Assembly (NCBI GenBank): GCA_030949995.1
Contig: JAUZRY010000107.1
Coordinates: forward strand, 1 to 64,000
DNA from: Ardenticatenia bacterium
GTDB taxonomy: Bacteria > Chloroflexota > Anaerolineae > Ardenticatenales > Ardenticatenaceae
Direction of reading: 5' to 3'
DNA: 64,000 bases
In this document: in pieces, positions 31,311 to 34,990 of the stretch
How the letters are laid out: every line of letters starts with the position of its first letter
Numbering within the stretch: the first letter of the stretch is position 1
Program-made: the position numbers and the translations under genes
The notes under the pieces: generated by a model
Database searches by the model: none
What the model was told of the DNA's origin: nothing
The model's input: only the letters and a program-made list of their open reading frames with translations

Positions 31311-31778
31311 TCACGGAGCAGCACCGGGAGGATCCTGGTGGGATGTGGCACGCAGGCCGGCGATGAGCGCCTCCCGTTCTTCAGGGGAAAGTCGAGCGCC
31401 AGGGTGCAACAGCACGTAGTAGGCCGGCGGCATCTCCCCCTCCTGGATGACCTCGACGAGCTCGTCAGCCTCTTGGAAGCGGTGCCACTCCGAGAAGTTC
31501 AACTCACGCCGTCCCTCGTCCACATCGTGGCGGACCAGCCACGAAATGGGCGCGATGTTGCTGTACCACGGCCACACCGTCTCATTGCTGTGACAGTCAA
31601 AGCAGGCCCGGCGGGCCAGCTCCCGGGTGTGCGCCGAATCCCACCGGGGCTCCCGGACGACCGGCGGGTTCTCGTGGGAATGCCCATACGGGATCAACTG
31701 GATCCCCACACCAACCACGGCCAGCAGGACAAAGAGGTGCCTCCAATACCGGCTCAACAGCGGGCGCATTGAACTCAT
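31311..31778 (-). CDS. Membrane-anchored haem-binding domain protein (Haem_bd, c-type CxxCH)
   Basis: A protein of about 155 aa with one N-terminal membrane helix (HLFVLLAVVGVGIQLIPYG) and an exported domain. The single c-haem motif CFDCH is followed by SNETVWPWYSNIAP and WLVRHDVDEGR, the exact pattern of the Haem_bd family. Such proteins often lie near other respiratory or stress genes and their partner is unknown. GGAGG precedes ATG 31781 and 31778. The latter has the better spacing. It is transcribed divergently from the glutaredoxin gene. Confidence 0.88.
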   Translation of the reverse strand: MSSMRPLLSRYWRHLFVLLAVVGVGIQLIPYGHSHENPPVVREPRWDSAHTRELARRACFDCHSNETVWPWYSNIAPISWLVRHDVDEGRRELNFSEWHRFQEADELVEVIQEGEMPPAYYVLLHPGARLSPEEREALIAGLRATSHQDPPGAAP

Positions 31779-31857
31779 CATGTCCTCCACGTTTCCTGTG
31801 ACACATGCTCCTCATTCAGGGCACTTGTCAGTTTACCCGGGCCCGAGGTCCGTTTGG

Positions 31858-31893: not shown

Positions 31894-32003
31894 GGGCCAC
31901 CCTGTGCGCCCAGCGACGCCGACGGGTTTCCCGGTATGAGCCCAGCAGGGTAGACTTTCAAGGCAGACTCGATCCCAACCACACATACACGAGGAGGTCT
32001 TTG

Positions 32004-32300
32004 ATGAAACGGTTGCGGGAGCTGTTCCGGCGATCGCCCAAGGGTGTGGTCATCTACACCCAGCCTACCTGAGCGGACTGCCAGATGGCGAAGAGGTTCT
32101 TCGCCCAACACGGCGTGCCCTACACCGAGAAAGATGTCACCACCAACGAGGCCTACATGGACGAACTCAAGGCCCTCGTAGGCCGCTTCATCACGCCGGT
32201 CGTGGTCATCGACGGGGAGGTGCTCCTGGGGTTCGGGGCCAACATGGCCCGCGTGCGGGAGCTCCTGCGACAAGGCGGATACCTCGACGGCGAGCCGTGA
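32004..32300 (+). CDS. Probable selenocysteine-containing glutaredoxin-like protein (UADC active site)
   Basis: Read through the TGA at 32070-32072, the frame gives a 98-aa glutaredoxin-like protein. The N-terminus ends VVIYTQPT, then TGA, then ADCQMAKRF, so the TGA takes the place of the first Cys of the glutaredoxin CxxC motif (YTxPTCxxC). The cis-Pro motif follows in ITPVVVIDGEVLLGFG. GAGGAGG lies 7 nt before ATG 32004. A hairpin resembling a bacterial SECIS starts 14 nt after the TGA. The simplest reading is Sec at residue 23. A TGC-to-TGA sequencing error is the alternative, but base substitutions are not otherwise evident in this sequence, whose errors are indels. It lies just upstream of copA. 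Confidence 0.75.
32087..32105 (+). promoter_or_regulatory. Candidate bacterial SECIS element
   Basis: GGCGAAGA-GGU-UCUUCGCC is a perfect 8-bp stem with a three-base GGU loop inside the coding sequence. The loop starts 22 nt after the UGA, within the 16-37 nt range known for SelB-dependent bacterial SECIS elements, whose apical G and U are the key bases. In the E. coli fdhF element the loop also carries GGU. Confidence 0.7.
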
Positions 32301-32346: not shown

Positions 32347-32374
32347 TTGCCAACGGCGCACAAGCGTGTATAAT
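32347..32374 (+). promoter_or_regulatory. copA promoter
   Basis: TTGCCA, a 16-nt spacer and TATAAT. Confidence 0.65.
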
Positions 32375-32387
32375 GAAAGGTGCACCC

Positions 32388-32410
32388 TACCCCCTATCCC
32401 CCAGGGGGTA
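32388..32410 (+). promoter_or_regulatory. CsoR-like copper operator
   Basis: TACCCCCT and AGGGGGTA form a perfect inverted repeat around ATCCCCC, just past the predicted start of the copA transcript. G/C tracts flanked by TAC and GTA are typical of CsoR sites. No csoR gene is in the window. Confidence 0.55.
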
Positions 32411-32458
32411 TACGGGGTGCCATCAGGGGGGAACAGGCTATAGAGAGGAGGTGCGAAT

Positions 32459-34990
32459 ATGAGCGCACAAACCAAAGTCGTGTTGCCCATCGAGGGCATG
32501 ACCTGCGCCTCATGTGTGAACCACATCACCCGCGCGCTCAAGAAGGTGCCGGGCGTGGCGGACGCACAGGTGAACTTGGCCACAGAGCGGGCCACCGTGA
32601 TCTTCGAGAACGGGGCCGTGCCCCTGAACGACCTGATTCAGGCGGTGCGGGACGCCGGCTACGGCGTGCCCACCCAGACGGCCGTGTTGCCCATTGCCGG
32701 GATGACCTGCGCCTCATGTGTGAACCACATCGAGCGGGCGCTGAAAAAAGTGCCCGGCGTGCTGGAGGCCAACGTCAACCTGGCCACGGAGAAGGCCAAG
32801 GTCACCTACATTCCCGAGCTGACCGGACTGGCCGACTTCAAGCGTGCCGTGGCCGAAGCCGGCTACGAGGTGCTCGACATGCCGGACGACGCGGCCGCCC
32901 GCGAGCACCAGGAAGAGGACGAATCCGAGCGCAAGATGCGCGAGGCCCGCTTCCGCATGTGGGTGGCGTGGGGCTTCACAGTGCCCATCATTCTCTGGAT
33001 GTTCCTGGAGATGTTCTTCGGCATCTACTGGCCCAACGAGACGATCTACAACGTGGGGATCATCCTGTTAGCCCTACCGGTGCTCTTCTGGGTGGGCCGT
33101 AAGACCTACGCGGCCGGCTTCGCCCCAGTCCTCCACGGCTACGCCAACATGGACACGCTCATCGCCTTGGGCACGGGCGTGGCGTTGCTCACAGGGCCAG
33201 CTTCATTCGTCTTCCCGGTGGCCAACTACGCCGGCGTGGCCGCCATGATCATGGCCTTCCACTTGACCGGCCGCTACGTCGAGGAAACGGCCAAGGGGCG
33301 TGCCTCACAGGCCATCCGCAAGCTGTTGGAGCTCGGCGCCAAGACGGCCCGCGTCATCCGCGACGGCCAAGAGGTAGAAATTCCCGTCGAGGAAATACAA
33401 GTGGGCGACATCATGGTCGTGCGCCCGGAGAGAAGATCCCCACCGACGGCGTGGTGATCGAGGGCGAGAGCGCGGTGGACGAGTCCATGGCCACCGGCGA
33501 GTCCATGCCCGTGAACAAGCGGCCCGGCGACGAGGTCATCGGGGCCTACGATCAACCAGGAAGGGCTGCTCAAGGTGCGGGCCACCCGTGTGGGCAAGGA
33601 TACCTTCCTGGCCCAGGTGATCAGAGCTGGTGGAAGAAGCACAGGGCACGAAAGTGCCCATTCAGGAGTTCGCCGACAGGGTGACCAGCGTCTTCGTGCC
33701 CATCATCATTACCATCGCCGTACTCACAGTCGTCGCGTGGCTCGCCTTCCCCGACGTCATGTACCGGCTGGTGGAACTCGGCTCCTTCCTGCCCTGGGTG
33801 AACCCGGACTTGGGCGTTATCACCCTGGCGATTGTCTCGATGGTGGCCGTGCTGGTCATCGCTTGCCCCTGCGCGCTGGGCTTGGCCACGCCCACGGCGC
33901 TGATGGTGGGCAGCGGCATGGGCGCTGAGCACGGCATCCTCATCCGCAGTGGTGAGGCCATCCAGACGCTCAAGGACGTGAAGGTAATCATCTTCGACAA
34001 GACAGGCACCATCACCAAGGGCAAGCCCGAAGTCACCGACGTGGTCGCCGTCAACGGGTTCGACGAGGCCGTGGTCGTCCGCCTGGCCGTTCGGCCGAGC
34101 GGGGCAGTGAGCACCCCCTGGGCCGCGCCATTGTCGAGCGCGCCGAGGAAGATGGGCTGAGCCTGGAGGATCCCCAGGACTTCCAGGCCATCCGCGGGAA
34201 GGGCGTCGTGGCCCGTGTCGGGTCGCGCCTGGTGGTGGTGGGCTCCCGCCGCCTGATGCAGGACCAAGGCATTGACCCCTCGCCCGTCGAGGCGCAAATG
34301 CGCGCCTTGGAAGAGGAAGCCAAGACGGCCATGCTGGTGGCCGTGGACGGCCAACTGGCTGGCGTCATCGCCGTGGCCGACACCCTGAAGGACGACTCCG
34401 TGCTCGCCATCCAGGAGCTGCACCGCATGGGCCTGCAGACGGCCATGATCACAGGCGACAACCGCCGCACGGCCGAGGCCATTGCGCGCAAGGTGGGCAT
34501 TGACCACGTCCTGGCCGAAGTGCTGCCCGACGGCAAAGTGGCCGAGGTGAAGGAGCTCCAGGAGCGGTTCGGCCTGGTGGCCTTCGTGGGCGACGGCATC
34601 AACGACGCCCCAGCCCTCACACAGGCCAACGTGGGCATCGCCATCGGCACGGGCACCGACATCGCCATCGAGGCCAGTGACGTCACCCTGGTGCGCGGCC
34701 ACCTGAGCGGTGTCGTGGAGGCCATCTACTTGAGCCGCGCCACCTTCCGCAAGATCAAGCAAAATCTCTTCTGGGCCTTCTTCTACAACGTGGCCATGAT
34801 CCCTTTGGCCATCATCGGCTGGATGCACCCCGTGTTGGCTGAGATCGCCATGGCCACCAGCTCCATCACGGTGGTCACCAACGCCAACCGCCTGCGCAAG
34901 GTGGACATCCGGCCCACCTACATGCGCGAGGAGCAGGCCACAGCCCGGGCCCAGCAGGGCGCTTGGCAACCGGCCGAGCGCCCCACCTGA
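32459..34990 (+). CDS. copA: Copper-exporting P1B-type ATPase, four frameshifts
   Basis: CopA pumps Cu+ out of the cytoplasm. Two N-terminal HMA domains each have GMTCASC (about residues 14-20 and 81-87). The actuator has ATGES, the membrane metal site is CPC ([13 protein letters not shown]), and the phosphorylation site is DKTGTITKG. The SEHPLG and [10 protein letters not shown] motifs are present. The frame breaks near 33425 (missing C), 33547 (extra base), 33625 (extra base) and 34090 (missing base). All conserved motifs are recovered when these are bridged, so the gene is probably intact in the organism. GAGGAGG precedes ATG 32459. A strong terminator follows. Confidence 0.93.

Follow-up and report, generated by a model that had tools for sequence, protein, structure and literature searches.

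A glutaredoxin-like gene of a Chloroflexota bacterium, very probably encoding a selenoprotein, with an in-frame TGA, a conserved SECIS hairpin and copA as its neighbour

Selenocysteine (Sec) glutaredoxins with a UxxC motif are an established selenoprotein family (PMC13188914, PMC1088965, PMC1794560); examples are Grx1 of Clostridium/Alkaliphilus oremlandii (Kim et al. 2011, as cited in PMC13188914) and the Sargasso Sea Grx (PMC1088965). The bacterial SECIS is a hairpin just after the TGA with a small apical loop carrying a G (PMC1088965). The gene described here is a further member of this already known family. It shares with the two examples the glutaredoxin fold, Sec as the first residue of UxxC and the SECIS after the UGA, but it differs from them in its UxDC motif, its short basic N-terminal extension and the GFxxN before the last helix, as well as in its Chloroflexota hosts and its copA neighbourhood. 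Among the papers whose titles and abstracts were searched, none described such proteins from Chloroflexota or tied a Sec glutaredoxin to copper.

The window, a stretch of 64,000 nucleotides of contig JAUZRY010000107.1 of an Ardenticatenia bacterium, carries the following features at this gene.

31991-31996, + strand: Shine-Dalgarno sequence AGGAGG ahead of the ATG at 32004, scored 6/6
32004-32300, + strand: Sec-containing glutaredoxin-like gene, 98 residues, UADC motif, stop TGA at 32298-32300
32070-32072, + strand: in-frame TGA, codon 23, read as selenocysteine; TGA in 24 related genes, Cys in one
32087-32105, + strand: bacterial SECIS hairpin with an 8-bp stem and a GGU loop, read directly and conserved in relatives

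By direct reading of the window, the frame from the ATG to the stop is open throughout except for the TGA at codon 23, which opens the redox motif UADC and is directly followed by ADC. The original prediction had put this TGA at the site of the first Cys of a CxxC motif, behind a strong ribosome site; both statements, and every coordinate of it that was tested, proved correct. When the TGA was scored as Cys, residues 15-73 matched Pfam Glutaredoxin (PF00462) at 9.8e-18 and with 64.6 bits, against a gathering score of 22.9, so that a score above the gathering cut-off and a UxxC motif, which together define membership, are both present. We regard 32004-32300 as almost certainly a genuine selenoprotein gene, encoding a redoxin of the glutaredoxin/NrdH fold with Sec as its N-terminal active-site residue (UADC). 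As with other UGA-Sec genes, standard annotation would miss this protein or reduce it to a fragment. From the codon, the hairpin, their conservation and the presence of selB and selD, we infer that the UGA at codon 23 would be decoded by Sec-tRNA(Sec), brought by SelB bound to the hairpin just 3' of the UGA.

Relatives were sought in 41 related genomes and 396 genomes of the class, and by a scan of genome contigs. The close relatives were from Chloroflexota; public records list them as Ardenticatenaceae, Anaerolineales, Caldilineae or unclassified Chloroflexi. The original prediction had looked to such relatives for Sec or Cys at this column: 24 of the 25 close relatives from the same class kept the TGA, with roughly 45-95% protein identity to this gene, and one had Cys. 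Of the named records, L071, from an Ardenticatenaceae MAG, is the nearest with 95% identity. The exception is a close relative in G023, where a TGT stands in the TGA column and the peptide reads TQPTCVDC. The TGA thus aligns with a Cys of homologues, and coding is conserved both 5' and 3' of it, as is required of a bacterial selenoprotein gene. This family of about 25 sequences extends the Sec glutaredoxins in Chloroflexota. The gene was not found in one genome of the same genus that is 96% complete. The redoxin tree, with few columns and many open forks, left the number of Sec/Cys changes unsettled.

Several variants were seen among the redoxins. A separate Cys/Sec exchange involves L115 (in G045), where TPTUGYC with a hairpin is close to TPTCGYC, a Cys form from G007. 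The Sec redoxin at L143:1701-1958 reads UADS, so that its motif no longer has the second Cys. An extra in-frame TAG lies in the Sec redoxin gene of L128 (in G030), which may be decayed or misassembled.

The recurrence of the TGA bears on the possibility that this codon is really TGC or TGT and that the TGA stems from a sequencing or assembly error. The neighbouring copA in this assembly does show indel differences, but 24 further genes, drawn from numerous separate assemblies, have TGA at this codon and retain the hairpin together with it, which makes such an error extremely improbable. Errors elsewhere in the window had been described as indels, and this agrees with the comparison to a sister species: the copA of the window is split over frames by several small indels, whereas that of the sister genome is intact (843 aa), and the redoxin gene has no indel relative to the sister. 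The broken copA therefore reflects either assembly indel errors or gene decay.

The same sister species differs from this gene at 30 codons, 25 of them silently and 5 by replacement, with none of the differences within codons 22-40 (P ~0.0009 for zero changes in codons 24-40). Silent changes prevail on both sides of the TGA, which argues against a pseudogene. An ATG at 32085 begins an ORF 12 nt past the TGA, so that a true stop followed by reinitiation would give a protein of 71 residues. In most relatives, however, this codon is an Ala codon and not ATG, and the Asp and Cys between the TGA and the ATG are nearly invariant; a split there would remove the active site. Either form of this explanation, decay or reinitiation, has a negligible probability in our estimate. 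Sequencing error, pseudogene or reinitiation, a plain stop and recoding to another amino acid were all rejected.

The hairpin consists of GGCGAAGA (32087-32094), which starts after 14 nt from the TGA, the loop GGT (32095-32097) and TCTTCGCC (32098-32105). The perfect 8-bp stem, the GGU loop and the 14-nt spacing had all been claimed beforehand, and all were there on direct reading. We estimated how often such a structure arises by chance by keeping the amino acids and drawing codons from local usage: a hairpin of at least 8 bp with a G in its loop at SECIS distance appeared in 0.8% of draws, and one of at least 7 bp in 14%. Because the peptide AKRFFA favours such a hairpin, a lone hairpin is modest evidence, and it is its conservation across relatives that settles the question.

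All 25 Sec sequences, this gene included, can form the hairpin, with the loop beginning 21-22 nt past the TGA. Most Cys homologues lack such a hairpin; two of them, L085 and L113, retain one that is similar but weaker. The third positions of the facing Ala and Phe codons of the stem covary synonymously among the 25 sequences (G-C in 17, A-T in 6 and G-T in 2). Where the loop codon encodes Arg, it is AGG in 13 of 14 sequences, against 3 of 105 Arg codons elsewhere in the same genes; where it encodes Ser, it is AGT in 11 of 11, against 3 of 27 Ser codons elsewhere. In the stem, 91.7% of cells were paired, with 9 double changes, a count reached by none of 500 shuffles, though the weight of this test is limited by the relatedness of the sequences; slid controls were far lower. 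Judged from these alignments, the hairpin is under selection at the RNA level, and, having a small apical loop with a G as well, it fits the SECIS that had been predicted. The gene provides a clean example of a SECIS within a coding region dictating codon choice. No match to a SECIS family of Rfam was found in the region. The sole Rfam match there, a sub-threshold snoRNA match on the other strand, was taken as chance.

The genome was searched for the genes of Sec incorporation in an assembly that is 86% complete and in 110 contigs. Its selB (276 bits) covers the N-terminal 260 residues up to a contig end, behind mnmE. Its selD (363 bits) is complete and has an in-frame TGA of its own followed by a hairpin; this TGA gene (L009; G000 C104 34940-35869) has the motif ACAGUAS. 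The search proposed with the original prediction thus recovered selB and selD, so that the complete lack of selA, selB, selC and selD, named there as a finding that would speak against Sec, does not apply. In this 86%-complete assembly, selA was not found, and neither was selC, by covariance model or with the selC sequence of the sister as a probe. That probe matched four relatives, selC was present in 5 of the 5 nearest relatives tested, and selA was above cut-off in 34 of 41 related genomes. The simplest reading is that selA and selC fall in assembly gaps, which for this species is a supposition. Formate dehydrogenases were searched for further Sec genes as well, and no clear Sec form turned up in this genome.

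The two missing genes would also fit a TGA that a suppressor or an altered genetic code lets stand for Trp or Cys, without Sec. Against this, TGA serves as the ordinary stop at the end of the same gene, the exchange seen in a relative is to Cys, the conservation of the hairpin fits a SECIS and selA is general in the class. We therefore consider recoding without Sec very improbable.

The predicted protein structure agrees with membership of the glutaredoxins. An AlphaFold model built with 30 aligned relatives had a mean pLDDT of 91; its elements run strand-helix-strand-helix-strand-strand-helix, and Sec23 stands immediately before the first helix. Foldseek found glutaredoxins for this model, its matches including cGrx1 (TM 0.92 on target), BC3987, NrdH and Grx3. 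By sequence, the best PDB matches were cGrx1 (7c10) and BC3987, which both also rank among the best by fold; cGrx1, presumably the C. oremlandii selenoprotein, is thus both the best sequence match in the PDB and among the closest folds. Residues 64-65 are the conserved Thr-Pro of the predicted cis-Pro loop. Of the full cis-Pro glutaredoxin fold that had been proposed, the fold is borne out by the model, its glutaredoxin matches and this Thr-Pro, while the cis-Pro itself is a predicted feature.

Among NCBIfam profiles, each of which scored below its cut-off, YruB (TIGR02196) was the best with 65.2 bits (cut-off 88.55), followed by Uxx-star (NF041212) with 62.7 bits, and NrdH (TIGR02194, cut-off 85.75) was also near; the profile likeness was greater to the YruB and NrdH types than to Grx3. 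The Uxx-star score, with Sec scored as Cys, falls short of the curated cut-off of 66, and the protein differs from that family by retaining the second Cys of the motif. With YruB and NrdH it shares the GF motif after the last strand, but it has Sec instead of their Cys.

From what is known of the family, the selenolate would attack oxidised thiols or disulfides, Cys26 downstream of it would resolve the selenenylsulfide that forms and a reductase would regenerate the redoxin. The client could perhaps be copper or soft-metal thiol chemistry, for example Cu-binding cysteines that are to be kept reduced. This client is proposed from the neighbourhood of the gene in relatives, where copA, csoR or cupredoxin genes have stayed beside it, and we see the chances for and against it as about equal.

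The neighbourhood in the window is as follows.

31311-31790, - strand: divergent neighbour, a Haem_bd domain protein, kept in the sister species
32347-32374, + strand: promoter-like TTGCCA-16-TATAAT ahead of copA, 0.4 expected by chance
32395-32412, + strand: palindrome TATCCCCCAGGGGGTATA, CsoR-operator-like, between the redoxin gene and copA, 0.09 expected by chance
32459-34990, + strand: copA-type P1B copper ATPase with two HMA domains and CPC, with frameshifts in this assembly

The placement between a haem protein and copA was as predicted. Of the thiol or metal stress suggested by it, the metal part is supported by the conserved copA linkage in other genomes. The palindrome resembles CsoR operators, and the sister genome has a similar site. 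Since the promoter-like site and the palindrome both separate the redoxin gene from copA, the arrangement suggests that copA in the window may be controlled on its own, by these candidate sites. When all loci were searched for the CsoR-like palindrome, it turned up in this genus alone, in the interval from the redoxin gene to copA, so that it does not explain the linkage in other genomes.

Within the stretches examined, a CopA homologue was present at 13 of 26 other loci of the redoxin family but at none of 80 unselected control loci. The controls, which are shorter on average (total ~345,000 bases, against 269,000 for the redoxin loci), numbered 84 with CopA in 4, of which three had been obtained via csoR and one was another Sec redoxin locus; setting these aside leaves 0 of 80. 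Cupredoxin genes were found at seven redoxin loci, and csoR belongs to the redoxin cluster of G023, while in G358 it shares a contig stretch with the redoxin gene. At six loci (L126, L127, L128, L129, L132 and L143), the UxDC gene is directly preceded by a second Sec redoxin gene with the motif GU[ML]FC, and these upstream redoxins carry a GUGAAAGAGUUUCUUUCAC-type hairpin. In several loci the tandem Sec redoxins directly adjoin copA.

We tentatively propose, at somewhat less than an even chance, a copper-homeostasis module of Chloroflexota: a single Sec redoxin or a pair (UxFC, then UxDC), encoded next to csoR, copA or cupredoxin genes, would act on copper-binding thiols through selenol chemistry. 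Alternatively, the selenoprotein may serve general thiol-disulfide exchange, for example toward ribonucleotide reductase or methionine sulfoxide reductase, with an incidental linkage to copA. The YruB- and NrdH-like profile scores, the fold matches to NrdH and Grx3 and, in the window, a promoter-like site of copA's own are in its favour, as is the fact that about 10 of 27 loci had no copper gene in the stretch examined, some of these being short contigs. The copA frequency relative to the controls and the tandem redoxins directly beside copA count against it, and we place it only just below an even chance. The family points to a possible, testable link between selenium and copper handling.

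Two further arrangements were observed among these loci. At L147:5853-6086, a GU[ML]FC Sec redoxin stands alone beside copA. At L136:7529-8242, L144:7429-8145 and L145:7970-8686, proteins of ~238 residues in all join a Sec glutaredoxin domain to a second domain of the CoA-binding type.
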